Positions 534 to 34,406 of a stretch of DNA of 34,497 nt are shown one piece after another. The DNA is taken from positions 1-34,497 of IMG/VR virus record IMGVR_UViG_3300013126_000117; one strand, written 5' to 3'. The translations under genes and the position numbers were made by a program. The notes beneath the pieces were generated by a model. The model saw only the letters and a program-made list of their open reading frames with translations, had not been told where the DNA came from and ran no database searches. Source of the DNA: a virus. The first letter of the stretch is position 1; every line of letters starts with the position of its first letter.

Positions 534-562
534 TAGTCAGGTGTGACGTGTTATACTATACT
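534..562 (+). promoter_or_regulatory. Promoter for the regulator, probably leaderless transcript
   Basis: TAGTCA (534-539, four of six matches to the -35 consensus) is separated by 17 bp from TATACT (557-562). Transcription would start about 7 bases after the -10 box, at position 569, which is the A of the regulator's ATG. No Shine-Dalgarno precedes that ATG. The same arrangement is known for lambda cI transcribed from PRM. An overlapping TATACT begins at 552. Confidence 0.5.
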
Positions 563-568
563 TACATT

Positions 569-1335: not shown

Positions 1336-2526
1336 ATGACCGTCACTCCCGTCCGCGATAACCACGGCAACCAGCTCACCGACAAGCACGGCCGTCTCCT
1401 CTGGGACGTGCAGATATCGGCGGGCTTTACCGCCGACGGCAAACGGAGCCGCCCCTCAAAGCGCGTCCACGGCAGTGAACGCGAAGCCAACCGCGTCGAG
1501 CATGACCTTACGGAAAAGGCGAAGGTCCCGGCGGGCAGCGCGAAGACCCTCTCCGCGTGGATCGAGGAATACCTTGCCCATCCTGAAAAGCCCCTGGCCG
1601 CTCGCACGCAGGAACTCTACCACGCCATGCACCGCAACCGGATCGCTGCCAAGCTCGGCAAATTGAAGCTGAAGGACATCACTACCGGCGACATTGCCAC
1701 GTTCCTCAAACATCTTCGAGAAGGTAAGCGCTTGGATGATCGCAAAGGCAAGGTCGGACTGGCGACCCTCGGCAAGTATTACCGGTTCCTGCATATGATC
1801 TTCCGCCAGGCCGTCTACGAGCGTCTGCTCACTCTTAATCCGGTCGACAATGTGCGCCCGCCGGCCAAGGAACAGGCATCCGTCGTCTACCTGCGCAGCG
1901 AGGAAGTTCAGCAGATATATAAGAAGCTCGATGGGCAGCCCCTCATCCTCCGTGTTGCCTTCACCACGGCGCTCACTACCGGCATGCGGCGTGGCGAGAT
2001 CTGCGGCCTGCGCTGGCGCGATGTGGAATGGGAGAAGAAGATTATCCGTGTCGAACGCAGCGTGTATCGGCGGGCAGGCGGCCAGGACGTAAAGACCACA
2101 AAAAGCGCCAGCGGACTGCGCACCGTTCCCGCCACCGAGCGTTTGGTCGAGCTGCTTAAAGCGTGGAAACGCGAATGTGGCATGCACCCCGACGGCTACA
2201 TTTTCACCTGGCCTGATGGCGCCCATCTCCGTCCTGACTTCCTCACCAGCGCCTGGCCACGTTTTCTTACCAATGCCGGGCTCCCCCACATTCGCTTCCA
2301 TGGCCTCCGCCACACCGCGGCCAGTATTCTCATCACCAACGGCATGCCGCTTAACGAAGTCGCCCAGGTCCTCGGCGACCGTCCGGAGACCATCAACCGC
2401 ATCTACGTCCACGTTATCCGCGACGCCGCCGACCGTCACCGCACTATCATGGAAAACCAACTGGCAGAAAAACCGGCAGAATCTTCTGCCACCGACCAAC
2501 ATATACGCTCAAAAGCCGCTCCCTGA
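1336..2526 (+). CDS. int: Tyrosine-family site-specific integrase
   Basis: A 396-residue tyrosine recombinase for integration and excision at the adjacent att core. The N-terminal 60 residues form an arm-binding-type domain (DKHGRLLWDVQIS). Residues about 70-175 are a SAM-like core-binding domain. The catalytic domain runs from about 185. Visible active-site residues are Arg218 (TGMRRGE), a Lys in KTTKSASG, His322 and Arg325 (HGLRHT) and nucleophile Tyr357 (IYVHV). The usual LGH motif reads LGD, so Asp348 replaces the second histidine. The ATG follows GGAG with an 8-base spacer. The gene ends 7 bp before the tRNA-like core, the usual int-attP arrangement, and it converges with the structural operon. 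Confidence 0.93.
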   Translation: MTVTPVRDNHGNQLTDKHGRLLWDVQISAGFTADGKRSRPSKRVHGSEREANRVEHDLTEKAKVPAGSAKTLSAWIEEYLAHPEKPLAARTQELYHAMHRNRIAAKLGKLKLKDITTGDIATFLKHLREGKRLDDRKGKVGLATLGKYYRFLHMIFRQAVYERLLTLNPVDNVRPPAKEQASVVYLRSEEVQQIYKKLDGQPLILRVAFTTALTTGMRRGEICGLRWRDVEWEKKIIRVERSVYRRAGGQDVKTTKSASGLRTVPATERLVELLKAWKRECGMHPDGYIFTWPDGAHLRPDFLTSAWPRFLTNAGLPHIRFHGLRHTAASILITNGMPLNEVAQVLGDRPETINRIYVHVIRDAADRHRTIMENQLAEKPAESSATDQHIRSKAAP

Positions 2527-8600: not shown

Positions 8601-11600
8601 GCGCTTATAGCGCAACGTGGACTTCGGCCCGCTCGACATAATCGACCCATGCACCCAAAACGGCCCCAACTCGCCATCATACGGTGAGCGCACATACGGC
8701 TTCGCCCACGCGCCGACCAGGTGATATTCGCTGTCGAGCACGTGCGCGATCTCGTGCGCGATGGTATCCAGGTCATTCGGCGAGCGCATTTTCACCTGAC
8801 CCGTGCTTGGATCGAACTTGGCAGCCAACCCCCGCCCCGGCTTGCCGACGGTCAACGCTTTTCCCAGCGCCAGTTGCAGATCGCCGACGATCTCCCGCAA
8901 CGGCTTCACGATCACTTCACCGGCTTTATTGCGATGGGGCGGGAGAGGCGCAATGGGCAGGCGTTCCTCGTCGGTCAACACCGCGTCTTCCGGCGCCGCG
9001 TAGGTCAGCGGCCGCTGTGTCGAGTTGCGGTACCGCATCGGCGCGCCGGGGTCAGCCTGACCGGGTTCCCCTTCGGCGTCCGTAAACGCCTCCGGCGCCG
9101 CTGCGTTTCGCGCGGTCAACGGAATGCCGGTCGCATACGTCAAAAAGCCGGGCTGCGGTTTTTCTGCCGTCGGGACCAGACGATCCGTGATTCCGAAGTA
9201 GACCATTTCTCCCTGCACCGACTGCACCATCCGCTTGAAGACCGAGGTTGAGTGTTGCCACAGCGCGGCGACATTCTGTTCCGTGTAGGCAAAACCGGCC
9301 CCGAGCGTCACTTCGGTGTGCGCGCGCGCGCCGCCCGGCAACAGGGTGCCCGTCAATCGCACACGGTGTGTCTCGCCGGAGCTGCTCTGCCCGATGAGAT
9401 CAAAAACATCGTTCGACGTGCCGACCGGTTCCAGCCGGATCGACAATTCGGCGTCCTGTTTCCCCGGTTTGGGCAAGGCTTTCTCGATCTCGCGTATTCC
9501 CTTTTCCACTTGCGCGCGCGAGAGCACCACCTGTGCGCTGATCGGGCGATGCACGCGATCATACGTCGGATACGTGGTGTCCATCAGCAGACGGGTGATG
9601 AGCTGCTGGTTGCCGTCATCCACCTGCAGCAACCCGGTCTTACCATCGCCCACTGTGAGGGTGATCGTCTGCGGCGCCTGTTCGCGCGTCAGCAAGGCCG
9701 GCAGCGACTGCTTGTCGCCAAACGGCGCGGGAATCAGATAGTCGCCGGCGGGCAGGTCGCCCTGCAGCCGCACCGTGCTTTCCGTTACCGTCATGCCGTC
9801 GGTGGCGATCACCTGCGCGCTGCGCTGATCGTTCGCCACCCGGAAGAGTACGTGCTTGAGCACCGCGCGTGCATCATCATCGGACACTGAGAGCAAGGCG
9901 CGCTTGAGCGCGCGGGTGAACTGCCCGCTGTCCACCGTCGCCGTGTGCGGGTCGGCAATCGTCGGAATGGTCGGGAACTCCTCGGCGGGATACGGCGCCG
10001 TCACCCATTCGGCATGTCCCTTGCCGCTCACCAGTTGATACAGTCCGTCCGCCAGGTCCGTCGGCGTGCTGATCGCGACCGACAGATCAGTAGAGGTCAT
10101 CACCCCATTGCGCACCAGCGCCATCGAGAGTATCGGCAGCGACGAACGCTGCGTGCCCGTGAAGGGTTTGTGCGCGTCAAACGTCGTCAGCGCGCCGGGA
10201 AACGGCACGGCGCTGGTATCGGCCACCGTGGCTTTCGCCGGCGCCTGGCGCGCACCACGCTCGACCAGCGTGAAGGGCGACAGTTCATTGACAATACCCA
10301 GCTCGACTTCCTCCGTGCGCAAGGCGTCAATGGCATCGCGCAGGTACTGGACGTTGCCGGCCGTGATGTACTTCGCGTCTGCCGGTATCCCGGCGGGGTG
10401 GGGTTGCGTCGCGGAAGTCTTCGGCAAATCGCCGCCCAGCATCTGCATGGGCATAATCAGCGACAAATCATCAGTAGGAGAGATGCCGGTCGCTCCGATG
10501 GGCACGGAACGCAGTGTCGCGATCTTTGCCGCCTCGCGCGCGGAATCATAGGCAAAGAGATACAGATGGTCTCCGGTGGCATAAACAACGATTTTGCCAC
10601 TGTCCGACACGAACGGCGCCACCGTCGTAATCGCGATGCGCAACTCCGCCGTGTTGAGCTGGTACGTGGTCGGCACGTCGCTATGCACTACACGCTCATA
10701 CGACGGATAGCCGCCGCGCCCGCGATGCTCGACGCGGATGAGCGTGCCGGTGTCCGCAGTCAGCGTCTCGTCGCCGAAGCGCAGGGTGACGCCGGAGCTT
10801 TTGCGTTCCTTGGCTACCAGGTCGATGAGCGTCCGCGTCAGCGCGTACTCGCCATCCTGCAGCGTGTCGGCAATGCCCGGCAGTTCTCGCACGATCAGAC
10901 GGTAAGTATCCGTGGCGATCAGCCGCGCCACGCCGCCCTGCACCTGCAACAGCACGTGCGTTAGGCTCGTGCGCTGATCGGAAGGTTCCGCCGTATATTT
11001 GAGCACCGTTGTCGCCAGTTCGCGAAACACGGCGAGATTGATGGTCAGCGTGCCATGCGACTGCGACGGCAACAGCGTCGTCAGCTCGCCGGCGCCCGGG
11101 GTGAAGGCGTCATCGCGCGTCCATCCCGTGCGCGTCAACTGGTAGACGCCATCCTGTAGCGTCGTTTTTGTGTAGACGCTGGCGGTAGCGCTCTGCGTGC
11201 GGTTCCAGCGCTCCGGCGCCAGCGTGGCGTAGAACTCCACGCTCGCCATCATGCCGTTGCGCACGTAGACCCGGCTGTAATGCTGCGTCCACTCGGCGTC
11301 TTCCCGCTCGTATTCCGCCCCGCGCCGCTGGCTGGCGCTCATGTCGCCGCGTTGCACCAGGCGGTGCACGTCGGTGTCTTTGCGCGACGGCGCGACCTCC
11401 AGCGTGGGGAACGTTGTGGTCAGCACGTCGCCGGTGGTGCGTTGCCGGCGCGTCTGGCGCTCGGTCACGGTGGCCTGAATGTCCGCCAGATGCCGGCTGG
11501 CCGCTTGATTGTAGGACGCGCCCGGTGTGGTCATCGCCTGCACGAAGTCTTCATCGTCGGCCATTCCGTCCGGCGCGAAGCCGCCGCGCTTGGCGGGTTG

Positions 11601-14600
11601 GCCCCACTTCTCGATTAGGTGCAGCGCCGTGCGGTCAACGCTCCCCCGATATCGCGCCGTCACCACCGGGTACAGCACCAGACCCGCCTTGGACTTCGGC
11701 GGCATGATCACCACGCCATCCTCACGGCTGTTCAGCGCGCCGGCCACCGCCGGGCGATCATCGGCGGGAATACGCTCGCTGATCACCACGCCGGCGTGTT
11801 CCGCGTCGATCTCTTCCTGCACTTGCGCCATGCGCGTCTGCGCGGCCAGGTTGACGGCGCGGTTGGTCTCATCGGCGGGCAGGAGGTACCGGCGCACCAG
11901 CGCGTCGAACGCGGCAGGATCGTGCGTCGCGGTCACCGCCGGCACGTCGCCGTCGCGGATCGTCTGCACCTCCGTGCCAGTATAGATCGTCGTATAGCCG
12001 GACGCGCGCTCCGTCACGGCGAAGGCGGGCAAGTCGTCATACTGGTGCCGCATCAGCACCACGGCGACTTCTTCGTAATCATCCTTGCCGAAATTGCGCC
12101 CAATGGTGTATTTCCCCTTGGGCATGTCCCACTCAGCCTCAATGAGTCCTTCGGCGGTGTAGGTGCGGTAGAACGGCGGCTTGAGCACGCCGACCTTCTT
12201 GGCCATGTCTTCGTTGAACGGTTTGCCCAGCCGGATCGACGCCAGCACGTCGGTGCGCAACGCACTCCACGCCTGCTCGTCGGTATCCAAACTGCGGCGG
12301 GCTTTCAACGCGTCCAGCGCCGTGCGATACGGCAATTCCGCCGCGGGACGCTTCGACGGCTCCGGCGCGATCGGCGCGGGTGTGGCGGACGGCGGCGCGT
12401 TTTTCTTTGCTTTTTTCGCAACAGTCGGAGCTTCAGCGGGCGGTGCGGGCGGCACAACAGCCGGTACCGCGCCGGTGCGCGCCATATTTTCCGCTGCGGT
12501 TTGCTCGCTCACCACCCACGGCGCGGCATATTCACGCTGTGCCGACGTGCCATCCGCGCCCTTGCGCACGGCTTTGACGTAATTCGCGGCTTCCGTGAGC
12601 AATGCTCTTTCCTGCTGCGAACGCGTAAGATCGCGGGCTGCGAGTCCGTACCACTGCAGCAGGTGATCGAGGTGATCAGTCCAGGCGGACAGTGCCGCGT
12701 CCGTGTCGGCCTTTTCGGCGCGCTGCACGTCCCGCGCAAGGTTGAACAGGTCCTGATGCTCTTGATTCGGAAAACGCACCGTCAGCCGCCCTACGCCCTG
12801 ACGATAGTAGGGCTGTGTAAAAGAGCCGGTGGGAGCCGGCGGCGCCGGCGCGGTGAACAGGACGCCGCTCTCGCGGGCTTGCCCGTCGGCCATCACGCGC
12901 AGCACTGCGGCGGTCTGACGCATTTCGTCGGCGGCATCCAGGTTGAGGCTCTCGGCATCCGTCTCGTAGTGGTCCGCCTCGGCGTCCAACCGGTTCGCTT
13001 CCGCGCGCAACTTGTCCGGCGTGGTCAACTGCCCACTGCCATACTCGCGGCGAATCCCTTGAATCACCTGCAACGCATCGTATACATCCGTGTCCGTGCC
13101 CGGTAATCCGCTGATCAGCGACTGCAGCGACCGATCCGACTTCCCGCGCGCCAGCGACACCGCCTGCTCAAGCGCTTTTGTGCCTGTCAATCCCTGCTGC
13201 CGCTTCAGAAATTCTTGATAGGCCGGTTCCGCCATCGCGCGCGCCTGCAACTGTATCGATTGCTGCTTGAGGAAATCAGTTTCGTCCCGACCTGTGGAAT
13301 ACAGTTTATGGTAGCCGGGCAGATCGGCGAGCTGCTGCGGCACCAATTGCACTTCCGCGCTCATGCCATTAGGCAGGCGAATCTGCAAATGACGCGCGCG
13401 GTAGCCGTATTCTGTTGGTTTATCGAACTTATCCTTCTCATCCAACAAAATACTGCGCTCGCGCATTCTTGAAGCGATGATATCAAACGACGAAAGCTGT
13501 TGGACGATTAACCGCCCGCCCAGATAATCCGAGATCGTATTCGGAGGCTTCCGCAACTCATCGACTTTATACAGCAGTCGTTTTGAGGGGTTATTGGGGT
13601 TGTCTTTATCAACCTTGAGCCGGCTACCGTCGAGACGCACATCATCCAAATCGGCAGTAATCTCTGAAAGCAAATCATCAAATGCCGGTTGCACAACGCG
13701 CGCGGCTTGCAAATTTTCTTTGACAGTCGCATACGGCTGGAGTATACTTCTCGCGGAGGTTTCCTCTATGGATACGGGATTAAATATTGGCGTGCTCTTT
13801 ATGACCGATGGTTCTCCTGGTCGCGTGTTGCTCGAAGATGGCAAACTCGTCGCCGAACTCTGGGATGGATCAGAGTGGTTTCGTCCCAAGGGATTTGGCC
13901 CAGGTGAAGTCTTCAACTCCTGGCCGTTACTGCCCTCCGAAGCGGATCGATTCAGACTCCCTGAATCGGATCGCGTCTTCAGGTCTGACGTGCTCGACCG
14001 CTGAACCACCACCGCCGGCGTCTCTTCGACCTGGCTGAACGTCGGCGCCACCGTGGCATCCGAGGATGAAGACGCGGCGGGCGCCGCCTCCAGATCCACC
14101 CCGGTGATCCGCTTGATCGCCCACGTCGCATTGTTCGACCGCTGCCGCTGCCACGCACCCACCGATGGTGCCCACTTGAACCCCGCCCCTTTCAACAGTG
14201 CCAGTTGCATCTTGTCCGGCTTGTCGTCGTAGAAGATCTGAACGCGGTTGTCCTCGACGTTATCCACAACGCGCCCCCCGGTGAAGGAGATATCCTGCGA
14301 AGTCTCCGCGCGCTGCTTGGTCAGCAACGACACCCGATCGCGCATGCGCTTGATATTCGCGTTGTTGTTGGACAACTCGTAATCAGCAAAGCCGGTGCGC
14401 CCCAGATAATCCGGTGTGAAGATCCTCGCGATGGTCTCTTCACTGAAGCCAAAGCGCTCGCTGATCAACGCTTTCTTGTCCGCGTCCGACATTCCGCGCT
14501 TGCGCAGAATGGTATTGACGCCGCGCATCGCTTCCTGCACCTTTTCCGCCTTGTCGATTTTGGCCTGCAGCTTCTCGATAGCCAGCTCATCATCGGACGA

Positions 14601-17267
14601 GATCATGCGCGAGGTTTCCGGCGCAATCACCTTACGCATCGCCTGCTGCGCGCGGTCCGACCACTCTATCAGCTCGGAGAACCGTTTGTCTGCGCTCGCC
14701 ATCTTCTTCGCATTCGACGCCACCGGGAACTTCGAGCCGCCGGTGATCATCGTGGACATCGTTTTCCCGTGCGCGGACAGATACGCGTGCAACCGTTGCA
14801 GATAGCCCACCTTGTACCGCTGCAATTCCTCGGCCAGCAGTGCCGACTTCTCCGGCGTCGTCGCGTAGGGCTGGAACAGGGCATACACCCGGTGCATGTG
14901 ATCCACGTAATCCTGTTGGATCGCCGCCCCGCGTTTCTCCGGCGAGAACGACGTGCCGCTGAACGCCGTCCGCGCCAGCGTCGAATCCACATCACGCGTA
15001 GAAACCAGAATCGGCAACCCGTTCTCCGGAGCCGCAGGCGTCTCGCTTGCACTCGGAACCGACGTCCCAACTTGACCCTCTCCCTCTGTAGAAGTGGGAA
15101 TATTGGAAATCGATGTATCGGCGGGCGCCGGCGCCTTCACTGCCGCAGGCGTATCGCCTGCACCTGGTGTGTCAGGTGTGACGCCAGTGACGCCAGTGAC
15201 AGCATTTCTCGGAGTTTCAACCGAAGCCCCCGTCCCCTCATACCCCGCCCGAATCACCCCCGCACGCTCCGCCGACAGCTCGCCGCCGGCCGCCCGGTAC
15301 TCCAGCAAATCCGCCAGCACTCGCAAGTCCGTCGCCGTCGAATCCTCCCCGCGCGCGTCCATCCCGTCAGCATGCGTCCGCAGTTGTCCAGTCACGCTTG
15401 ACAACTCATCCGCCTGCCGCTTCGACACCGCCTTCCCCGGCGTCAACTGCATTTTCCCAAGGATCTGTTCCGCATTCACCAGCGGATCAGTAGACGCCAC
15501 CCCCGCATCGCTCGCCACTGACGATAGCTCCCCCTCTCCCTGTGGGGGAGGGGGTAGGGGGGTGGGGTTGGTCGAGGGAAAAGACACCGGAGGCGTCTCT
15601 ACCACCGGAGCACTCGGCGCCAACACGCCAGCCGGCCGCACCACCATCGACGGCGCCGCCGAAGGCAACCCCTCCACCGCCGGCATCCGCCCCGCCTGTG
15701 TCGAAGGAACAATTCCGCGTGGCGGCACCGGAGATGCATTGCGCGCTTTTGCATCAATGAAGTGACCAAAATTAATTGCATCTGGAGTCGTTGGTATAAC
15801 AGAATTAGTCTGCTGACGGTTCAACCGACTTTCTTCGAGTGATGACCAGGTAGCGCCGGCAACTTCTGGAATGCTGACAAACGCACCGGCTAATGATTCA
15901 AGCAAAACCTCGCGCGGATCGATTTTTCTGACAGCCTCGCTGAATGGCATGCCCTCGCTCTGATTGGCAAGTAATTGCGAATACGCCTCACCACCACCTT
16001 CAGTCACAGCCTCTATCGCTGATCCAATGCCCGCTCTCATAACGTGCGAGCCACCGACACGCGTCAGAGCACTGGGGAGCACAGCACCGGTAGCCATGTC
16101 AGTCCCCACAATCCCCGAGGCTTTTGCATTGCCGCGATTCAGCGCGCGACTGGCGATGTCAGGATTGCGCAACAGAAACGTCTCAACCGCATCAGTATTG
16201 GTCCAGTCAACGCGCACATTTAGTTGTGCCGCGGCTTTTTCCAGCACTTGCAACATTTCGTTGCTGTATTCCAGTTGATAGTTCGTGGGAGCATTGAGGA
16301 TACCACCCAGCACGGGGAGTGAGCCAACCAGCGTATTTTGTATGCCCTGCTGCCCAAACGAACGCGCAACCGTCTCCATCAAACCGGGAATGCCCAGGAA
16401 TCCGAAGTCGCCGCGCTGCATGGCATCGCTCATCGGGTAGCGCTGGTTATATTGCGCAGCCGCCGCGATTGACGACGCTTGCTGTCGAAGCGAGTTATCG
16501 AGTGGACTAAACTCATCGTTTTTTTGTCCTCCCGCCAGAAATCCCATGATTTGGTTGCCGGCACTGGCGAGACGCCCGACTCGTTGCCGACCGGTGGATG
16601 GGTCAATATTCATCGAGCGCTGCAGCAGTGCACCGGTCTCTTCTCGACCGTTATTCAGATACAAATTCTCTTGCCGCAGACGCGCGAACTCCTCTGGCGA
16701 CATCTCCGGGATCGGCAGTGCTCTGTTTACGTCACGAATCAAGTGCTGCACGTGCGGGCTCATGCTGCTTTCTGGACCAGTATTGCCGGCGTTGATTGCG
16801 GCATTCCGCTGCATGATCTCTTGCCGTGTGCGTGTCGGTGAACCCGTAATATCATAGAGCGCTGCCGACGCACGAAGATCACTCGCACGCGCAGCCGGTG
16901 GCATGGTTGGCGCCTGGTTGGCCGGGGTGAGCTGCTGCAGTGCGAACCGCTGCGCGTCCGTCAACGCACCAGGTGCACGCGAGACAACTGGTGAAGTCGG
17001 AGAAATTTTGCCCATGCCTTCGTGATAGCCGACAGTCGAGCGCCCGTGCAGGCGGTCTGCCATCGCGCGGCGATAAATGTCTTCCTTGCTTTCTTCTACT
17101 GGCGCCGGCGCGCCCGTCGCCGCCACATACGCCTGAATAAACGCTTCCGGGTCGAAAGCCTGACCACTCGGCGCGCTCGCGCGCGTGCCCGCCACCGGTC
17201 GCGTGGGCGCCGTCGGCAGTGTTCCGGTCGCGTATTGTTCGGCGAAGCGTTGTGGATCAAAGGCCAT
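5655..17267 (-). CDS. Giant polyvalent (probably injected) virion protein, 3870 residues
   Basis: One uninterrupted frame of 11.6 kb. The ATG at 17267 follows GGGGAG with 7 bases, preferred over a frame extension to 17291. Recognisable order: two FDPxxFxxxY motifs (3-12, 38-47); a Gly/Ala-rich hydrophobic region (about 310-470); disordered linkers; a DUF3560-like module (about 856-1061, FKWAPSVGAWQRQ); a Ser-rich linker (about 1088-1167); a RelA/SpoT-like domain (about 1175-1360); two DnaN-like modules (about 1992-2341 and 2369-2717); a zincin with HEIAH (2838-2842); helical regions; and an LPD38-like region (about 3300-3560). Polyvalent proteins of this kind are known from phages and conjugative elements and are thought to enter the cell with the DNA. 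Its place after ejection-type proteins and before the lysis genes fits a late virion protein. The role is inferred; proteolytic processing is possible. Confidence 0.88.
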   Translation of the reverse strand: MAFDPQRFAEQYATGTLPTAPTRPVAGTRASAPSGQAFDPEAFIQAYVAATGAPAPVEESKEDIYRRAMADRLHGRSTVGYHEGMGKISPTSPVVSRAPGALTDAQRFALQQLTPANQAPTMPPAARASDLRASAALYDITGSPTRTRQEIMQRNAAINAGNTGPESSMSPHVQHLIRDVNRALPIPEMSPEEFARLRQENLYLNNGREETGALLQRSMNIDPSTGRQRVGRLASAGNQIMGFLAGGQKNDEFSPLDNSLRQQASSIAAAAQYNQRYPMSDAMQRGDFGFLGIPGLMETVARSFGQQGIQNTLVGSLPVLGGILNAPTNYQLEYSNEMLQVLEKAAAQLNVRVDWTNTDAVETFLLRNPDIASRALNRGNAKASGIVGTDMATGAVLPSALTRVGGSHVMRAGIGSAIEAVTEGGGEAYSQLLANQSEGMPFSEAVRKIDPREVLLESLAGAFVSIPEVAGATWSSLEESRLNRQQTNSVIPTTPDAINFGHFIDAKARNASPVPPRGIVPSTQAGRMPAVEGLPSAAPSMVVRPAGVLAPSAPVVETPPVSFPSTNPTPLPPPPQGEGELSSVASDAGVASTDPLVNAEQILGKMQLTPGKAVSKRQADELSSVTGQLRTHADGMDARGEDSTATDLRVLADLLEYRAAGGELSAERAGVIRAGYEGTGASVETPRNAVTGVTGVTPDTPGAGDTPAAVKAPAPADTSISNIPTSTEGEGQVGTSVPSASETPAAPENGLPILVSTRDVDSTLARTAFSGTSFSPEKRGAAIQQDYVDHMHRVYALFQPYATTPEKSALLAEELQRYKVGYLQRLHAYLSAHGKTMSTMITGGSKFPVASNAKKMASADKRFSELIEWSDRAQQAMRKVIAPETSRMISSDDELAIEKLQAKIDKAEKVQEAMRGVNTILRKRGMSDADKKALISERFGFSEETIARIFTPDYLGRTGFADYELSNNNANIKRMRDRVSLLTKQRAETSQDISFTGGRVVDNVEDNRVQIFYDDKPDKMQLALLKGAGFKWAPSVGAWQRQRSNNATWAIKRITGVDLEAAPAASSSSDATVAPTFSQVEETPAVVVQRSSTSDLKTRSDSGSLNRSASEGSNGQELKTSPGPNPLGRNHSDPSQSSATSLPSSSNTRPGEPSVIKSTPIFNPVSIEETSARSILQPYATVKENLQAARVVQPAFDDLLSEITADLDDVRLDGSRLKVDKDNPNNPSKRLLYKVDELRKPPNTISDYLGGRLIVQQLSSFDIIASRMRERSILLDEKDKFDKPTEYGYRARHLQIRLPNGMSAEVQLVPQQLADLPGYHKLYSTGRDETDFLKQQSIQLQARAMAEPAYQEFLKRQQGLTGTKALEQAVSLARGKSDRSLQSLISGLPGTDTDVYDALQVIQGIRREYGSGQLTTPDKLRAEANRLDAEADHYETDAESLNLDAADEMRQTAAVLRVMADGQARESGVLFTAPAPPAPTGSFTQPYYRQGVGRLTVRFPNQEHQDLFNLARDVQRAEKADTDAALSAWTDHLDHLLQWYGLAARDLTRSQQERALLTEAANYVKAVRKGADGTSAQREYAAPWVVSEQTAAENMARTGAVPAVVPPAPPAEAPTVAKKAKKNAPPSATPAPIAPEPSKRPAAELPYRTALDALKARRSLDTDEQAWSALRTDVLASIRLGKPFNEDMAKKVGVLKPPFYRTYTAEGLIEAEWDMPKGKYTIGRNFGKDDYEEVAVVLMRHQYDDLPAFAVTERASGYTTIYTGTEVQTIRDGDVPAVTATHDPAAFDALVRRYLLPADETNRAVNLAAQTRMAQVQEEIDAEHAGVVISERIPADDRPAVAGALNSREDGVVIMPPKSKAGLVLYPVVTARYRGSVDRTALHLIEKWGQPAKRGGFAPDGMADDEDFVQAMTTPGASYNQAASRHLADIQATVTERQTRRQRTTGDVLTTTFPTLEVAPSRKDTDVHRLVQRGDMSASQRRGAEYEREDAEWTQHYSRVYVRNGMMASVEFYATLAPERWNRTQSATASVYTKTTLQDGVYQLTRTGWTRDDAFTPGAGELTTLLPSQSHGTLTINLAVFRELATTVLKYTAEPSDQRTSLTHVLLQVQGGVARLIATDTYRLIVRELPGIADTLQDGEYALTRTLIDLVAKERKSSGVTLRFGDETLTADTGTLIRVEHRGRGGYPSYERVVHSDVPTTYQLNTAELRIAITTVAPFVSDSGKIVVYATGDHLYLFAYDSAREAAKIATLRSVPIGATGISPTDDLSLIMPMQMLGGDLPKTSATQPHPAGIPADAKYITAGNVQYLRDAIDALRTEEVELGIVNELSPFTLVERGARQAPAKATVADTSAVPFPGALTTFDAHKPFTGTQRSSLPILSMALVRNGVMTSTDLSVAISTPTDLADGLYQLVSGKGHAEWVTAPYPAEEFPTIPTIADPHTATVDSGQFTRALKRALLSVSDDDARAVLKHVLFRVANDQRSAQVIATDGMTVTESTVRLQGDLPAGDYLIPAPFGDKQSLPALLTREQAPQTITLTVGDGKTGLLQVDDGNQQLITRLLMDTTYPTYDRVHRPISAQVVLSRAQVEKGIREIEKALPKPGKQDAELSIRLEPVGTSNDVFDLIGQSSSGETHRVRLTGTLLPGGARAHTEVTLGAGFAYTEQNVAALWQHSTSVFKRMVQSVQGEMVYFGITDRLVPTAEKPQPGFLTYATGIPLTARNAAAPEAFTDAEGEPGQADPGAPMRYRNSTQRPLTYAAPEDAVLTDEERLPIAPLPPHRNKAGEVIVKPLREIVGDLQLALGKALTVGKPGRGLAAKFDPSTGQVKMRSPNDLDTIAHEIAHVLDSEYHLVGAWAKPYVRSPYDGELGPFWVHGSIMSSGPKSTLRYKRAEGVAEYIRAWIVNPDAAEQAAPRFTKEVFHANVPAAARTALRAFGDDIRRWAGMTPIDQAMSNVQMTPEQQTPLTTIRDFLTIGKKPGEVTSWLDYFQAWLLNDWKKPFKKNVDRAAQIQGWDTPGHDVQLHNVLPLQDPTILLAKLDGFERDFNAFIEESVPALFKDFTLDQGDAVLEEQIRTMVAYGIAKRTMEKGAQWEREDHISGIGAGLKADLQQAWDIVDQVHADPALRAIVEKSLANYQKFTRGTLRYAVDHDMLTQEEMDRYIDQNEEYIAFYRLADETPPEASAVFPQLQHKQLGLQPRLFYKLTGAVDPLENPLIASLRQSRKIRYNAEKNAPKAALVRLLESDRGMYDAPMAPLSDIGYRSTEDDKHAYKVMLDGEAQYWHFEPGIHAVFTWGEKVLDPSLYSTFFKGLTTLLKAPVSIARGFALAMPDFKIRNIVRDTVESAINTKSGRQAWQFMGHITPEEIKEYYHAGGGQFGHYLASPTSFYKIIKDVTHEMQHTASGTKDRLISLDTLKKLLKQYHDLGEMSELKNRIAEYRANKALGPSLSAVDVSTGQTVPLDEANLQALSAFNARQLMDFAEGSLFSKFLDTYGVPFTNSSMVGMARSFQGMFSKNPRLRKRWWTKYIFYALIPTLCVWAWNAMSGNLDEYREMPAYLRDTFWLFKLPWPGGWLRIPKPFQAGVMASGAERALDYTSGNKDAFMGYGGNVGQSFMPYNVESSFWGPYKVFIEMGANYDLFRQRNIVPVWEKDKRVALRDTSRASRIGQAVQAASGDRLDARTVDFYLQEQFGGPGRYATMLTNPKGVNVPTGLNMITGLFTNAPGSNALHVQHVMDVAVKNSWQETPAVQSLRDQLKAFNAATEREKEAMRKDLLRNVKALSNTLDAKNTTADLIAKAHSADEMNRVLQRAGIEPLTDLERMLSIIELRNVQTKALGHSIEPIDDRQTKSEAAYRAATTRALIKKARQAGR
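7220..7350 (-). other. LPD38-like core in the C-terminal part of the giant protein
   Basis: Residues about 3306-3350 read as a helical segment ending in MPDFKIRNIVRDTVESA, which resembles the N-F-x-x-R-N-x-x-R-D signature of large polyvalent protein associated domain 38. The following roughly 200 residues keep other features I associate with that domain, including LRDTFWLFKLP, WLRIPKPFQAG and NYDLFRQRNIVP. The assignment is from memory of the family pattern. Confidence 0.55.
8565..8800 (-). other. Zincin metallopeptidase-like domain in the giant protein
   Basis: HEIAH at residues 2838-2842 (nucleotides 8742-8756) sits in a helix preceded by NDLDTIA and followed by VLDSEYHL, a zincin HExxH signature. 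A likely third ligand is the glutamate of EGVAEYIRAW at about residue 2893. Zincin-type domains are common in phage polyvalent proteins. Possible roles are self-processing or attack on host proteins; the sequence does not decide between them. Confidence 0.65.
9115..10160 (-). other. DnaN (beta sliding clamp)-like module 2 in the giant protein
   Basis: Residues about 2369-2717. Landmarks follow DnaN in order. A domain 1 strand pair reads LPILSMAL and STDLSVAIST, where E. coli DnaN has LPILGNLL and GTDLEMEM. A domain 1-2 junction reads AEEFPTIP. Domain 2 reads LKHVLFRV and VIATDGMTV. The domain 2-3 junction reads YPTYDRV. A domain 3 end reads NVAALWQ, then GEMVYFGITDRLVP. Domain 1 is short (about 55 residues instead of about 120). 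No replication function can be read from this. Confidence 0.75.
10245..11290 (-). other. DnaN (beta sliding clamp)-like module 1 in the giant protein
   Basis: Residues about 1992-2341. Domain 2 landmarks are LTHVLLQV, LIATDTYRLIVREL (compare VATDGHRLAVCSM in E. coli DnaN) and YPSYERVV (compare FPDYRRVL). Domain 3 shows a helix-strand pattern and GNVQYLRDAIDALRTEEVEL, then NELSPFTLVE, matching the YVLDVLNALKCENVRMML and SSVQIED region of DnaN. As in module 2, domain 1 is abbreviated. The two modules are adjacent, about 28 residues apart. Confidence 0.78.
13200..13745 (-). other. RelA/SpoT-like nucleotidyltransferase domain in the giant protein
   Basis: Residues about 1175-1356. SKRLLYKVDEL is followed by ISDYLGGRLIV, where Asp1247 matches the metal-binding Asp of the RelA synthetase fold. 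Next come YGYRARHLQI (compare NGYQSLH) and AEVQLVP, with Glu1305 and Gln1307 matching the ExQ motif. The key residues appear retained, so the domain may be catalytically active as a pyrophosphokinase or related nucleotidyltransferase. Its substrate cannot be inferred. Confidence 0.75.
13720..13748 (+). promoter_or_regulatory. Consensus sigma-70 promoter antisense to the giant gene
   Basis: TTGACA (13720-13725), a 17-bp spacer, and TATACT (13743-13748): a perfect -35, optimal spacing and a five-of-six -10. It points into the small plus-strand ORF at 13768. It lies within coding sequence for the start of the RelA/SpoT-like domain on the other strand. Confidence 0.7.
13768..14004 (+). CDS. Small protein nested antisense within the giant gene (candidate moron)
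   Basis: A 78-residue ORF read opposite to everything around it. ATG at 13768 lies 8 bases after GGAGG (13755-13759), itself just downstream of a consensus promoter. The product looks like a normal soluble protein: hydrophobic start (GLNIGVLFMTDG), strand-like middle (GRVLLEDGKLVAELWDG, EWFRPKGFG), and a charged end rich in D, E and R. It contains no Tyr, His, Gln or Cys. In this frame relation Tyr codons (after a codon ending in T or C) and His or Gln codons (after T) would create stops in the giant gene. Its Asp, Glu and Leu codons become Ser or Arg opposite, which accounts for much of the giant protein's Ser-rich linker. I recognise no family. Its own promoter suggests expression in the lysogen. 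Confidence 0.7.
   Translation: MDTGLNIGVLFMTDGSPGRVLLEDGKLVAELWDGSEWFRPKGFGPGEVFNSWPLLPSEADRFRLPESDRVFRSDVLDR
15530..15577. repeat. Palindromic element family B, in frame inside the giant gene
   Basis: A CCCCTCTCCC arm, a short loop, a GGGGGAGGGG arm and a G-rich tail ending in GTCGAGGG. Read on the minus strand it encodes TNPTPLPPPPQGEGE in the disordered linker of the giant protein. The copy at 30465-30516 encodes nearly the same peptide in another gene. Confidence 0.8.
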
Positions 17268-17271
17268 GGTC

Positions 17272-18927
17272 CTACTCCCCGAGGTTGGCAAGCGACGGGT
17301 ACTTCCGCCGCAGACTGGCTTTCAGCGTGGGATATACCTGATCCGGCGTGGCGCCGCCCTGCTGAATCATCTGCACAATGTTCGCTGCCTCGCGCAGCAC
17401 CCGGTCGGCTTCCGTGCGCCCGAGGGTGCCCACCAGGCTGTTGGCGAAGTTCTGGAAGTTCTGGCCGCCGTAGTTGTCCCAGGAGCGATAATCGCCGCCC
17501 ACCCACGGGCCGCCCTTGCCGAGCTGCTTCGGCGGGCCGGACGCCAGCGCGTGATTCATCTCTTCGAGTTGCGTGTGAAGTTCCGCTGGCGCGTCCATCC
17601 CGCGGGCAGCATAGCTGCTGATCTGGTTCGCTACGGCGTCCCGCGCGCTCTTCGTCTCCGCCGCCCACGTCTTCGGGTTGTAGCTGTTGGCGTCTCCCTG
17701 CCGGCGCACCTCGGCCAGCGCCTCGCTCCCCGTCAATTCAATGGGGCCCAGCGCCGTGTTCACCAGGTACCGCGGCGCGCCGCCGCCGCCACCGCCGCCG
17801 CTGCCCTTCTTACCCAGCGCATCGATCTGCGCGGCCTTGTACAGCGCGTTCATCTGCCGCGTGTCTTCCGCCGTCTGCCACTTGGCATACTGTTCCGGGT
17901 CCATCCGCACCGGCTGTCCGTCCACGTTGCCGAAAAAGGTGTTGTCGATGGCCGACTGCGCCGCCGCCCGCTCGCTCGCTGACCAACCATACTTACTGAC
18001 GGCCTGATCCAAAAACTTCGCCGCGTATTTCTTCCGCGTCGCCAGCGGCATGCTCGTATCGCCGGAAAGTGTCTGTTGCGCCCAGGTGATCGGGTCCAGA
18101 TACGTCCCGCCCGGCGCCGTCAACTGTCCCTTTTTGTTTTCTGCCGCCAGCTCGTTCAGCGTTCGCTGCTTCATGAAATCGTTTGTGAGCTGCCGCACCG
18201 GCGCGTTGTTAATGAACTCCTTCGACTGCAGAATGTTGGCCTGGTTGCCGGCCGTCGTCGCCGCCGCGCCGGACGCGCGCGCATCGATGAAGGGATCGCT
18301 GGTATACTCCTTATTGCGCATGATGTCGGCGAGCTGCTGCGCTATCTGCGCGTCGTATTGCCCGGAGTACGCGGCCAACCCTGTCGGCGAGGCATCGATT
18401 CTGGTGCGTGCAATTCCTAAATCGGTCTGATCCTGGTCCCAGCGCAATTTGGACGCGCGGAACAACTGCGCTGCCTGCGACATGTCTTCGGTGTTGCGCA
18501 TCGTTGACAGTCGGTTCGCCGTCGTCGTGGCATCAAAACCGGTGTTGATACTCTCGTTATATTTTGGACCACTTTGCAGAATATCGTTATTTGTCTGTCG
18601 ATAAAACGACATCAGCCAGCTGGCAATGCCGGCAATTGGGGAATTTGCGTCCACAAGCCCTGGAAACAGCGTGCCTACCGATTTGTTCTGTTCATACAGG
18701 CGGCGTAATTGCTCCGCTTGTATATCGCGTGTCGTTTTGGTCTGATCAGCTTCAAAATCTCGATTCTTCTGATTCTCCATCGCCTGCCACAGATGTTGCA
18801 TCTCATCGCGCTTATCTTGATACGCGCGCGCGTCCGCCATCTGATGACGTTGCGTCATATCGTCGGCGGCTGACGATAATCCCGGCAGCAACCCTTTCAT
18901 GAATCCGATGCCAAAATTTCCGGCCAT
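17272..18927 (-). CDS. Ejection-type internal virion protein
   Basis: A 551-residue protein with no enzymatic motif. The N-terminus has a short Gly/Leu hydrophobic stretch (FGIGFMKGLLPGLSS). It is followed by a strongly helical, charged region (about 25-85, with repeated Gln/Arg/Glu) and long Ala/Asn/Gln-rich helices to about 400. Four to seven consecutive Gly follow near residue 385 (GSGGGGGG), then a helical C-terminus. Composition and position between the tail protein and the giant protein match the internal or ejection proteins of short-tailed phages (P22 gp7/gp16/gp20 or T7 gp14-16 in role). The role is inferred from synteny only. The ATG follows a GGGGGTGG site. The stop overlaps the Shine-Dalgarno region of the giant gene. 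Confidence 0.7.
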   Translation of the reverse strand: MAGNFGIGFMKGLLPGLSSAADDMTQRHQMADARAYQDKRDEMQHLWQAMENQKNRDFEADQTKTTRDIQAEQLRRLYEQNKSVGTLFPGLVDANSPIAGIASWLMSFYRQTNNDILQSGPKYNESINTGFDATTTANRLSTMRNTEDMSQAAQLFRASKLRWDQDQTDLGIARTRIDASPTGLAAYSGQYDAQIAQQLADIMRNKEYTSDPFIDARASGAAATTAGNQANILQSKEFINNAPVRQLTNDFMKQRTLNELAAENKKGQLTAPGGTYLDPITWAQQTLSGDTSMPLATRKKYAAKFLDQAVSKYGWSASERAAAQSAIDNTFFGNVDGQPVRMDPEQYAKWQTAEDTRQMNALYKAAQIDALGKKGSGGGGGGGAPRYLVNTALGPIELTGSEALAEVRRQGDANSYNPKTWAAETKSARDAVANQISSYAARGMDAPAELHTQLEEMNHALASGPPKQLGKGGPWVGGDYRSWDNYGGQNFQNFANSLVGTLGRTEADRVLREAANIVQMIQQGGATPDQVYPTLKASLRRKYPSLANLGE

Positions 18928-27885: not shown

Positions 27886-27930
27886 TCCCCCCTCCCCACG
27901 TAGGGGAGGGGGGCTAGGGGGGAGAGGTTA
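27886..27930. repeat. Palindromic element family B, intergenic copy
   Basis: CCCCCCTCCCC, loop ACGTA, GGGGAGGGGGG and a tail ending in GGAGAGGTTA. It lies between the major capsid gene and the 426-residue gene and overlaps the capsid stop codon. Confidence 0.85.
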
Positions 27931-28878
27931 GCTCCCCTTGATCATCACCCATCCGCGCCAGTCGCTCGCGCCGTTGGAGCAGGAGAACGAAGCCTTGTAC
28001 TTGGTGTCACCCGTGTCGAAGTCTTCGTCGCTCGCCGTGTCCAGCGGATCGCGGTCGAACCAGTACGTCCGGAAGGTGTTCCCGCGGATCAGCATGATGT
28101 CGGGATCGAGATAATCCCACATCACCGGCGTCAGCCGGCCGCGAAGCGTGTTCTTCGCGTTGTTCGCGTTCCACCACTCGCCGGGCGAGTTCATCCACTT
28201 GTCGACCAGGAACTGCTTGCTCGAATGGAACAGCAGAACCTGGCTCTTCAGGTGCATCTGGTAGCTCATGTCATTGACCGTCTGGTCCATGAGCAAGATG
28301 CCGTCCTGCAACGAGGTGTAGTCCGGGTCGGCGGCAATGAGGTTGCCATACGTGGAGAGGTCCACGCTCCGCTGGCTCAACGGGTGCGCGGCATGGAACA
28401 GCGGCAGGTTCTCTTCCGCGTTCCACACCACGGTATCGCCCGTGTTGAACAGGTTCGCGGCCAGCACTTCGCGCGTGGCTGCCGCCGCCATGCCGAATTG
28501 GCTGGCCGCTTCATCGATCTGGAAGTACAGCAGGTCGCGCTTCACCCGCTTCGTGAACCGGAGACCGGTCGCGTAGTCCAGGTGATAGAACGTCGACTTA
28601 TACCGGCTTTCGATCTGCTGATAGTGGACCGGTTGGCCCTCGTTCAGCCGCTCGAAGTAGCCGATGCCGGCCATCGAGAGCATCTGCTCGAAAGCCTTCT
28701 GGGAAGTCATCTGGTGGTACGCCTGCGAGATGCGGCTCTCGACGGTTTCCACGCCGAGTCCGAACACCTGGTTCAGACCTTCCACAAACAGTTCCGGACG
28801 GAACCCCATGCGATTCATCGCCGTTCCGCCCGCAATGGTGGGACCCTGATAGGTCGGCATGCCCGGCATATCTGCCAT
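27928..28878 (-). CDS. Major capsid protein (Mu gpT-like)
   Basis: A 316-residue protein that forms the capsid shell. It resembles Mu gpT-type head proteins: a helical N-terminal region (VETVESRISQAYHQMTSQKAFEQML), a basic region (FTKRVKRDLLYF), and the recurrent ENLPLFHAAHPLS segment near residue 165. A C-terminal beta-rich region ends in WRGWVMIKG. The length suits a HK97-fold capsid protein without a protease domain. ATG at 28878 is set by GAGG with an 8-base spacer; a GTG nine bases earlier is less likely. It is flanked by scaffold-side genes upstream and decoration genes downstream. Confidence 0.82.
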   Translation of the reverse strand: MADMPGMPTYQGPTIAGGTAMNRMGFRPELFVEGLNQVFGLGVETVESRISQAYHQMTSQKAFEQMLSMAGIGYFERLNEGQPVHYQQIESRYKSTFYHLDYATGLRFTKRVKRDLLYFQIDEAASQFGMAAAATREVLAANLFNTGDTVVWNAEENLPLFHAAHPLSQRSVDLSTYGNLIAADPDYTSLQDGILLMDQTVNDMSYQMHLKSQVLLFHSSKQFLVDKWMNSPGEWWNANNAKNTLRGRLTPVMWDYLDPDIMLIRGNTFRTYWFDRDPLDTASDEDFDTGDTKYKASFSCSNGASDWRGWVMIKGS

Positions 28879-29168
28879 GACAATCACCTCACGGTAAGAA
28901 TGTGCGTGTTCGCTGGATTCCGCCCGGTCAATGCCTGGAGCAGTTCCCCGTCACGTCAAACGCGTCGGACTGGCAGGTTCGAGTATCGAGCACCATCACA
29001 GTGATCCGCGATATGCAATTGTCCGCCTCGCCGCTCGCCTTCCTCACCGATCCGAAACGGGTTGCCGATAAGAAAGCCTCACAACTCGGGTTTGACCGAA
29101 GTCCGGTGGTTGAGTAGTCCCGACGTATCGGGACGTATCGAAACCCCGGACGGATGGATACGCGGAGC
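28879..29168. other. 290-bp gap upstream of the major capsid gene
   Basis: No convincing gene here. It holds the family C palindrome (29102-29151) and the capsid ribosome binding site. A minus-strand 86-residue frame at 28928-29188 looks like chance. No good promoter was found on the minus strand: a TTGACG has no matching -10 box. Confidence 0.7.
29102..29151. repeat. Long imperfect palindrome (family C)
   Basis: TCCGGTGGTT at one end and AAACCCCGGA at the other are near-inverse. The centre is a perfect hairpin: GTCCCGA (29117-29123), loop CGTA, TCGGGAC (29128-29134). It resembles host-dispersed elements of the GGTTGAGTAG...GTATCGAAACC type seen in some bacterial chromosomes. It lies just past the stop of the 146-residue gene and may also terminate or stabilise transcripts. 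Confidence 0.7.
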
Positions 29169-31772: not shown

Positions 31773-31778
31773 TCAAAA

Positions 31779-31794
31779 GCCCCTTTCGATCTAT
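31779..31794 (-). promoter_or_regulatory. Shared leader/RBS copy 3 (scaffold gene)
   Basis: The complement carries TAGATCGAAAGGGGCT just before the scaffold ATG, with AAAGGGG as Shine-Dalgarno (7-base spacer). The same 16 bases occur upstream of the Acb2/Tad1-like gene (32432-32447). A shorter form lies before the 108-residue gene. Confidence 0.65.
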
Positions 31795-31796
31795 AT

Positions 31797-31836
31797 CACC
31801 CCTCTCCCGGTGGGAGAGGGGCAGGGGGTGAGGGTT
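31797..31836. repeat. Palindromic element family B, intergenic copy
   Basis: CCCCTCTCCC, loop GGT, GGGAGAGGGG, then CAGGGGGTGAGGG. It lies between the scaffold gene and the 108-residue gene. Confidence 0.85.
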
Positions 31837-31844
31837 GGCTGTAT

Positions 31845-32171
31845 TTACCCACCCGCCTCTTCGTCTTCCTTCAACTGCTGCCGAATCGACAACTGCCGCC
31901 GAATCCACCGCATCACGTCGGAATCGTAATCCCCGTTCGCCGCGGCGTCCTGACTCGGCGCCAGCGCGTGCACGGCCACGTCCAGTCCGTCCACCACGCC
32001 CCGCCAGCGGTCCACGTCGTCCCGGTGCACCGTGTGCACGCTCTGGTCCGCCACGATCATCCGCTGCTGCAGATAATCGATCAGCAACGGATACTGCGGG
32101 TGCGCCATCAGCTGGCTCAACCCCACCAGCGCCCCCTCCAACTCCTTCTCGCTCATCGAATCAACGTTCAA
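31845..32171 (-). CDS. Unrecognised small protein
   Basis: A 108-residue helical, charged protein (EKELEGALVGLSQLMAH, YPLLIDYLQQRMIVADQ, DDVDRWRGVVDGLDVAV, then MRWIRRQLSIRQQLKEDEE). No family recognised. The TTG start at 32171 is supported by AAAGGGG with a 6-base spacer in the shared leader. An ATG five codons later has no site of its own. It is placed between the Acb2/Tad1-like protein and the scaffold, so it may be a minor head-assembly protein. Confidence 0.6.
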   Translation of the reverse strand: MNVDSMSEKELEGALVGLSQLMAHPQYPLLIDYLQQRMIVADQSVHTVHRDDVDRWRGVVDGLDVAVHALAPSQDAAANGDYDSDVMRWIRRQLSIRQQLKEDEEAGG

Positions 32172-32175
32172 AAGT

Positions 32176-32188
32176 AGCCCCTTTCGAT
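32176..32188 (-). promoter_or_regulatory. Shared leader/RBS copy 2 (108-residue gene)
   Basis: The complement carries ATCGAAAGGGGCT before the TTG start. It is the shortest of the three copies but agrees in position and the AAAGGGG core. Confidence 0.6.
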
Positions 32189-32194
32189 ATGTAT

Positions 32195-32428
32195 CTACTC
32201 GTTGCGCGCGATAGCCGCATTCGCGTAGAAGACCACTTCCTCCAGCGCCGAGAGAGCCAAAGACTGCTCCCGGCTCGGAGGAGTCACTGTCAACAGATAC
32301 AGTGCAAAAATTAGCGCCTGGCCGCGAATCTGTTCATATCGCGGTGCCTGATTCAATTCAGGTTTTGGCGCGTGATAGCTGTGATCGTTCTTCAGCCGAT
32401 CAAACATCTTCTCATCAGGTGTATACAC
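32195..32428 (-). CDS. Acb2/Tad1 hairpin-domain protein (candidate nucleotide sponge)
   Basis: A 77-residue protein. The sequence follows the Acb2/Tad1 hairpin pattern: SYHAPKPE near the start, RYEQIRGQALIFALYL for the first long helix, and SREQSLALSALEEVVFYANAAIARNE for the second. Members bind cyclic oligonucleotide or cyclic-ADPR-type signals and block CBASS or Thoeris signalling. The ligand here cannot be inferred. The GTG at 32428 is preferred because AAAGGGG lies 5 bases upstream. A longer frame to 32521 would only translate the family B palindrome. It sits within the structural operon between portal and scaffold, so expression should be late. Confidence 0.78.
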   Translation of the reverse strand: MYTPDEKMFDRLKNDHSYHAPKPELNQAPRYEQIRGQALIFALYLLTVTPPSREQSLALSALEEVVFYANAAIARNE

Positions 32429-32431
32429 AGT

Positions 32432-32447
32432 AGCCCCTTTCGATCTA
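32432..32447 (-). promoter_or_regulatory. Shared leader/RBS copy 1 (Acb2/Tad1-like gene)
   Basis: The complement carries TAGATCGAAAGGGGCT upstream of the GTG start; the AAAGGGG core is the Shine-Dalgarno. Identical over 16 bases to the copy before the scaffold gene. Confidence 0.65.
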
Positions 32448-32451
32448 CAGC

Positions 32452-32490
32452 TCCCCTCCCCGCGTCGGGGAGGGGCCGGGGGAGAGGTTA
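32452..32490. repeat. Palindromic element family B, intergenic copy
   Basis: CCCCTCCCC, loop GCGTC, GGGGAGGGG, then CCGGGGGAGAGGTTA. It lies between the portal stop and the Acb2/Tad1-like start. Confidence 0.85.
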
Positions 32491-32492
32491 CG

Positions 32493-34394
32493 TCACGTAA
32501 CCGCCCCTTGATTACCACCACCCGGTACCTGCGGCGCCATCATCTGCGCCATCTGCACCCGCTGCATCACCTGCGCCTGCATCATCGCTTCCTGCTCGCT
32601 CCCGATCACCCGCTCCGGATACCGCACCCGGAACTCGCTCACCAGGTCCAGCGTCAGCGCGTGGATGTGCATCAGGTTGTTCGCCACCAGCGGATTCTGA
32701 ATCAGCTTGTCGTACAGAAGGATCGCCCGCTGCATCCGCATCTGCTGGTTCGCCATCTCCGCGTTGCCGGCGCTGATCAGGTCGTAATCGCCGGACAGCG
32801 CCTGCAGCGCCTGCATCCCCGTCGGGTCCGGCCCCACCGACTCTGCCCACACCCGCTGCACGCTCGGCGACAGCGCCATCTGCAAATCGCTTGCCAGCAC
32901 CAGCCGCGCCAACCGGGAGAAGCTGCGCGCCAGGTTGTCCGTCATCTCGCCGAACAGCACCTCTCCCTCGGCAATGGTGTGCTGAATCTCGGTGGCCGTC
33001 GGATCGCCCGATCTCCGCACGCCCAGGTTCGTGTCGTCCATCCCTGTCGCTCGCGCCATCTGCTGCCGCATCATCTCCATCGCGCCGATCACCAGCTGCA
33101 GATCGTCGCCCAACTCCTGTTCCAGCGCGCGGAAGGATTCCGGGTCATTCACTTCCCAGATGGCGCCTGGCGACAGGCCGCGCTTGAACAGCGCCATCTC
33201 CGCCTTCGACAGCGCCCCCGCCCGCGCCAACAGCGGCTTGTGGATGTGCTTCGCCAACCCGTCGATGTAGAGCCGCATCAGCACCGTCGACCACTGCTGA
33301 CTATCGCCCGCCAGGTCCGGCAGCGACCGCCCCAGCATGCCCGCCTTGCCCGGCAGCGGCACGAACTCCACCATCGGGATCTCGCCATGCCACCACGGGT
33401 TCGGCCGGAAGCGCAGCACCGTCCGCGACTCCTCGTGAATGGTGATCTGGTAGATCGACGCCGGCACCATCCCCGGCTGCGGAGAATACAGCCAGAAGCA
33501 TTCGGTGAGGTTATACGGCCGGAACGTGAAGTTGCGCGGATCATGCGTCGACAGCGACTTCGCCATCCCGCGCGCGGTGTGCTCGGTCGACCCTTCATAG
33601 GCGTCCCCCTGCCACCCGTCGCGCAGATACTCCACCGCCGCCATGTCGAAGTTGCCGTTGATGCCTTCCATCAGCAGCTCGTTGCCGCTCAACACCGACC
33701 GGAACGCAACCCCGTGCGCCTCGCTGACGCTGCGCGCCGTCGGCGGGTAAATATCCAGCTTGTCCGCGTCCACCGCCACGATCTCCAGCCCGTCATACAG
33801 CGGATACTGCTCCGGCACCGGCTCCAGCTGCGGCGGCGTCAATCCGACGTTGCCATAGACGTCTTGGTAGGGACGCTGCACCAGCGCGTACTTGCGCCGC
33901 ATCCGCGGATCATGCCGGTACCGGAGATACGCGAACGACGCGCCATCCTGATGCGCACCGTTGATCACCGGCACCAGCCGCTCTTCCGCGCACATATACT
34001 GCGGGCCCAGCCGGCGCTGCAGGTAATCCTCGATCGCGTTGGAGAATTGCCGGTCCCACGGCAGCCGCCCCATCGCCGTGATCATCGGATCGGGACTGAA
34101 CAGCGCCTTCTTCTCCCGCGCCACGATGTTCTGCTGCGCGTAGATCAGCATCGGAATCGACAGCTCGCACGCCTCCGGATATGGCTTGTTCGCCCTCCGC
34201 TGCTTCGGGTCATACAGCGCCCGGTCGCTCACCATCGTCCGGTGATACGGCGCCCAATACGAACGCGTCTGCTTCAACCGGTCAATCAGATCCTCCACGA
34301 ACGCCCGCACCGACTCGCCAGGCGCCGGCGCAGAAATCGCCCGCCTGTCGTCTTGGTACGGCTCCGTATACAGAATCTGACTCTCCAGCGCCAT
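32493..34394 (-). CDS. Portal protein
   Basis: A 633-residue protein, the size of large podoviral portals. Portal-like features include a helical N-terminal region (ALYDPKQRRANKPYPEACELSIPMLIYAQQNIVAREKKALF). A central beta/helix part (RPNPWWHGEIPMVEFVPLPGKAG) is followed by the long helices of the crown (QELGDDLQLVIGAMEMMRQQMARATGM). A Gln/Met-rich helical tail follows. It would form the dodecameric DNA channel at the capsid vertex. The ATG at 34394 lies 7 bases after GAGG; an ATG two codons earlier is weaker. It is the first complete structural gene seen here, so the terminase should lie to its right. Confidence 0.83.
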   Translation of the reverse strand: MALESQILYTEPYQDDRRAISAPAPGESVRAFVEDLIDRLKQTRSYWAPYHRTMVSDRALYDPKQRRANKPYPEACELSIPMLIYAQQNIVAREKKALFSPDPMITAMGRLPWDRQFSNAIEDYLQRRLGPQYMCAEERLVPVINGAHQDGASFAYLRYRHDPRMRRKYALVQRPYQDVYGNVGLTPPQLEPVPEQYPLYDGLEIVAVDADKLDIYPPTARSVSEAHGVAFRSVLSGNELLMEGINGNFDMAAVEYLRDGWQGDAYEGSTEHTARGMAKSLSTHDPRNFTFRPYNLTECFWLYSPQPGMVPASIYQITIHEESRTVLRFRPNPWWHGEIPMVEFVPLPGKAGMLGRSLPDLAGDSQQWSTVLMRLYIDGLAKHIHKPLLARAGALSKAEMALFKRGLSPGAIWEVNDPESFRALEQELGDDLQLVIGAMEMMRQQMARATGMDDTNLGVRRSGDPTATEIQHTIAEGEVLFGEMTDNLARSFSRLARLVLASDLQMALSPSVQRVWAESVGPDPTGMQALQALSGDYDLISAGNAEMANQQMRMQRAILLYDKLIQNPLVANNLMHIHALTLDLVSEFRVRYPERVIGSEQEAMMQAQVMQRVQMAQMMAPQVPGGGNQGAVT

Positions 34395-34406
34395 GATCAT
34401 GCCTCA

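Follow-up and report, generated by a model that had tools for sequence, protein, structure and literature searches.

The viral DNA analysed here (the window: all 34,497 nt, positions 1-34,497, of IMG/VR record IMGVR_UViG_3300013126_000117) carries, among genes for the phage head, a short minus-strand ORF that a first-pass annotation had read as a sponge of the Acb2/Tad1 family, which would neutralise CBASS or Thoeris signals and would accumulate late with the head proteins or travel in the virion. We asked whether this ORF encodes such a sponge, which of the two kinds of signal it would bind, and whether its place in the head operon carries functional meaning. The sponge family is already known, as are its fold and its activity; what is new is one more member in a mildly notable location.

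Family membership, predicted fold and likely ligands

Translation of the minus strand at 32195-32428 from a GTG start gives the 77-residue protein exactly as it had been reported, VYTPDEKMFDRLKNDHSYHAPKPELNQAPRYEQIRGQALIFALYLLTVTPPSREQSLALSALEEVVFYANAAIARNE. A tblastn search recovered homologues at 30 loci of viral contigs (44-66% identity, best E 5e-21) and in 222 phage records, and the whole 34,497-base record gave one match to the sponge family. Because there are many independent homologues, the ORF is not a chance one and, judged from them, is a genuine gene. The family assignment was borne out by an HMM search: the protein matches Pfam PF24729 (Acb2/Tad1, hairpin domain) with 47.4 bits over profile positions 1-58 of 58, 20 bits over the gathering score of 27 bits, and two experimentally proven sponges, T4 Acb2 (71.4 bits) and PaP2 Acb2 (66.1 bits), are recognised by this model too. 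The nearest phage family is PHROG 1454 ('unknown function'; full-length match, E 8e-21). Cluster E mycobacteriophage homologues in PHROG 1454 belong to the same sequence family, and the Bask21 homologue was among those recovered by tblastn; they have already been termed CBASS antagonists, or cyclic oligonucleotide sequestering protein (PMC11953737), and their gene is located in the right arm rather than among the head genes.

Acb2/Tad1 chains in the PDB were reached by the family profile only. A phmmer search of the PDB with the single sequence reached no Acb2 chain and returned nothing meaningful, whereas a profile built from 33 homologues found the solved 'Acb2 homolog 43' (9ptq) at 1.9e-7 and matched Tad1 structures weakly (0.012), through SRENACALTHVEEALMWMN in CbTad1. 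Acb2 homolog 43 (76 aa, six chains deposited), the closest solved relative by profile, is of the same length class but lacks the TPPSREQS/NAAIARN wording; a literature text search on 9ptq returned no paper text. Searches of NCBIfam and PADLOC with the 77-aa protein were negative, and no relative turned up when bacterial genomes were scanned. Homologues in Paenibacillus and Brevibacillus phages (L033, L038, L044) are annotated 'phosphomannomutase', a label that is implausible for proteins of only about 70 aa.

The AlphaFold monomer model (pLDDT 92.8) places helices at residues 6-15, 27-48 and 53-76, a predicted Acb2 layout in which a short N-terminal helix precedes the long helical hairpin that the first-pass annotation had described. 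On structural comparison T4 Acb2 with cGAMP (7uq2) ranked first (Z 5.9, rmsd 2.8, 60 residues); since unrelated helical hairpins scored only slightly lower, this ranking is supportive and not decisive. When aligned with T4 and PaP2 Acb2, Y18 corresponds to PaP2 Y11 and T4 Y8, and R35 to PaP2 K26 and T4 K23, with arginine in place of lysine; in Acb2 both positions are linked to the binding of cyclic dinucleotides. All of the 33 homologues have R35 and nearly all have Y18, and the pocket spacing in relatives that lack a two-residue insertion carried by the window protein is 15 residues, the same as in Acb2. In T4 Acb2 the Y8A substitution disrupts dinucleotide binding (PMC12657218). The ligand-stacking residue F82 of T4 Acb2 falls near A74 in the alignment and has no aromatic equivalent. 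Overall, the protein shares with Acb2 (T4 Vs.4, PaP2 p26) the PF24729 domain, the short helix followed by a hairpin, and the Tyr and Lys/Arg pocket positions, but it is only about 15% identical to the T4 and PaP2 proteins, is 11-16 residues shorter and has a shorter hairpin. From sequence and model, it is fairly probable that the 77-aa protein is an Acb2-type phage sponge for CBASS cyclic oligonucleotides, expressed from the head operon. Like Acb2, it would probably assemble as a hexamer; the hexamer would bind CBASS cyclic di- and/or trinucleotides without cutting them, and this capture of the signal would keep the host's suicide effectors off, thereby inhibiting CBASS.

The second helix carries a word resembling the one common to Acb2 (KTKLKEASMWACRAV in T4) and Tad1; in the Tad1 hairpin, including that of CbTad1, it has the form SRExxxALTxxEEAxMWxN, and the window protein reads SREQSLALSALEEVVFYAN. 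This resemblance and the weak CbTad1 profile match are what a Tad1-like sponge with the Thoeris signal gcADPR as its main ligand would explain. In Tad1, however, an additional N-terminal domain, a beta-sheet (beta1-beta4), forms part of the gcADPR pocket (PMC12043709), and the model of the 77-aa protein contains no strand. The absence of this sheet makes gcADPR binding, and hence action on Thoeris, less likely, and we regard a mainly gcADPR-binding sponge as quite unlikely. CBASS signals thus appear the likelier targets: of the two systems proposed at the outset, CBASS is favoured by the Acb2 layout, and the Thoeris half of the proposal is weakened by the missing sheet.

The head operon and its repeated leaders

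The sponge gene lies directly downstream of the portal gene and is followed first by a 108-aa ORF and a scaffold-like gene and then, at a greater distance, by the major capsid gene, all running in one direction (Table 1). Its head-operon position had been read correctly and recurs in other phages. It had also been placed between portal and scaffold; the portal gene does adjoin it, but the 108-aa ORF separates it from the scaffold-like gene. As family searches of the 395-aa protein gave no significant match, the label 'scaffold' reflects position and composition. T4 acb2, by contrast, sits among the vs/tk genes.

Table 1. Features of the head operon in the window, and placement of relatives of the sponge gene in other phages
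Feature or phage	Position	Strand	Basis or placement
Putative Acb2-type sponge gene, 77 aa, GTG start	32195-32428	-	translation, PF24729, phrog_1454, AlphaFold
Portal gene, SU10 type	32493-34400	-	PF23899 E 5e-19; phrog_1216
108-aa ORF, function not assigned	31845-32171	-	no family match
Scaffold-like gene, 395 aa	30585-31772	-	position and composition only
Major capsid protein gene	27928-28887	-	PF25209 24.1 bits, just under cut-off; phrog_4523/371
Leader of sponge gene, AAAGGGG ribosome-binding stretch, + strand AGTAGCCCCTTTCGAT	32429-32444	-	exact 13-nt core
Same leader, ahead of 108-aa ORF	32173-32188	-	exact 13-nt core
Same leader (13-nt core), ahead of scaffold-like gene	31778-31793	-	exact 13-nt core
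56-nt intergenic unit (leader and GC-rich hairpin), portal/sponge gap	32432-32487		82% identical to 31778-31833
56-nt intergenic unit (leader and GC-rich hairpin), upstream of scaffold-like gene	31778-31833		82% identity
Relative in L005			after phrog_146 portal, before head protease
Relative in L009			after phrog_156 portal, upstream of major head protein
Relative in L017/L018			between MuF-type head morphogenesis gene and scaffold
Relative in L020			between phrog_113 portal and MuF-type gene
Relative in L025			between probable scaffold and capsid gene
Relative in Gordonia phages Schomber (gp23), ScarletRaider			immediately after portal
Relative in Streptomyces phages BRock (gp154), pSt2308			between terminase and portal
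Relative in Cheetobro, Marshawn, MissDaisy			just upstream of terminase
Homologue in cyanophage S-2L	35214-35405 (L035 6001-6192)		between tail protein and tail assembly gene

The major capsid protein is 28% identical to annotated Roseobacter phage head proteins, and scans of IMG/VR for relatives of the window's portal and capsid protein returned none. No sponge ORF was found in the head region examined of the capsid relatives CRP-901, HTVC023P and GB2A. Phages with related capsid proteins carry a GroES-type co-chaperonin gene in the head operon (L025 6740-7183, L052 5613-6017, L053 5321-5761). Between 25000 and 34497 the searches found neither a sigma-70-like promoter nor, on the minus strand, a terminator-like site; other promoter types are possible.

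Three consecutive genes (sponge, 108-aa ORF and scaffold-like) are preceded by an identical 13-nt leader, ATCGAAAGGGGCT, of which the window contains no other mismatch-free copy. Two 56-nt units, each made of the leader and a GC-rich hairpin, bracket the sponge gene together with the 108-aa ORF, and the pair may be a cassette for which the intergenic unit served as the point of entry or was duplicated along with it. GC-rich 28-nt hairpin repeats (CCCTCxCC...GGxGAGGGG...), none of which is expected by chance, occur at 15532, 19692, 23243, 30470, 31800 and 32454, mostly upstream of structural genes, with two (15532 and 30470) within ORFs.

Beyond the head genes, the window encodes a tyrosine integrase (1336-2526, plus strand) and an HTH protein (548-916, plus strand; PADLOC capH match, E 1.8e-6), the latter most likely an ordinary phage repressor, and from these two genes the phage is probably temperate. 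A large polyvalent protein of 3878 aa (5655-17291, minus strand) contains LPD38 and a DNA polymerase III beta central domain (35.8 bits), with a weak RelA/SpoT match below the cut-off.

Relatives of the sponge gene in other phages

Head modules of at least 7 other lineages contain a relative of the sponge gene, and most relatives lie elsewhere, including in replication, nucleotide-metabolism or lysis regions. Only 2 of about 14 sampled cultured lineages carry it inside the terminase-capsid stretch, and both the query and viral hallmark genes bias the set of viral contigs; these two sets are no basis for claiming that head modules are enriched in sponge genes. Members from head modules are dispersed over a 43-row tree, with 8 label changes, and a topology joining the head-operon members in a single clade was rejected (p-AU 0.011, on 80 columns with weak resolution). 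Since they do not form one clade, head operons probably captured such genes several times.

Common descent of the position in the window and in L025 found no support, as the two portals have no pairwise similarity and the gene order differs; the 108-aa ORF of the window and a 109-aa ORF of L025 likewise have no detectable similarity. Two Gordonia phages (L032 6194-8274, L049 3697-5789) carry the homologue with the portal gene directly on one side and RNA ligase and ADP-ribosyltransferase genes directly on the other, possibly a host-takeover or counter-defence cluster within the head module. The homologue of cyanophage S-2L, in a tail operon, lies mostly in a stretch that has no annotated gene.

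Timing of expression and competing explanations

If the sponge is made from the head operon, it should build up alongside the portal, scaffold and capsid protein, and would be present when a capsid-linked defence starts to signal. Such timing fits reports that Thoeris can sense the major capsid protein (PMC12578639) and that a capsid mutation allows a phage without acb2 to escape CBASS (PMC10419184). The sponge would also be silent in the lysogen, so that host defences against other phages would stay active; Acb2 reportedly acts in induction and not in lysogenic maintenance (PMC12043709). Against late timing, it is known that sponges of phages can work early: in SPO1, cGAMP-binding activity (Acb4) is seen from about 15 min after infection (PMC11722364). 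We consider late, capsid-timed expression plausible and a reasonable inference from the position. The broader proposal that head operons have repeatedly captured short Acb2-type sponges as a capsid-timed counter-defence that is silent in lysogeny is, in our view, rather doubtful.

The timing proposal, though not the sponge assignment, competes with the explanation that the gene is a passenger, landed by recombination at the repeated intergenic units and simply transcribed from a place that has no functional meaning. The 56-nt repeats on both sides of the sponge gene and 108-aa ORF, the scattering of head-module members on the tree and the small share of cultured lineages with the gene inside the terminase-capsid stretch all agree with a passenger, for which we see a chance just short of even; what speaks against it is the recurrence of the gene in unrelated head modules, as well as the reported links of capsid proteins to Thoeris (PMC12578639) and CBASS (PMC10419184). 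A different reading of the same position, adjacent to portal or scaffold in several phages, is that the protein serves head assembly or is a minor virion protein that reuses the hairpin fold after losing nucleotide binding. This is unlikely, given that homologues of the same family occur in replication, nucleotide-metabolism and lysis regions, that the pocket positions remain conserved, and that such an ORF is missing from the examined head region of CRP-901, HTVC023P and GB2A. The suggestion that virions carry the sponge, inside or on the particle, and deliver it at injection, which likewise draws on the position among head genes and nothing else, found no support: no observation links the protein to the particle, early-type regions also contain homologues, and a sponge would work by stoichiometry, so a few packaged copies would bind little signal. 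We regard it as highly improbable.

The window adds an environmental member to a short form of the sponge family that has been little studied and whose genes often carry the label 'hypothetical' or, wrongly, 'phosphomannomutase'. If both expression from the head operon and signal binding hold for the Acb2-type sponge described here, a phage, here a probably temperate one, can make a signal sponge part of its head programme, with counter-defence matched to the moment at which capsid-linked immunity fires, and the lysogen would be spared with respect both to its own defences and to sponge-sensing systems such as Panoptes (PMC12657218).
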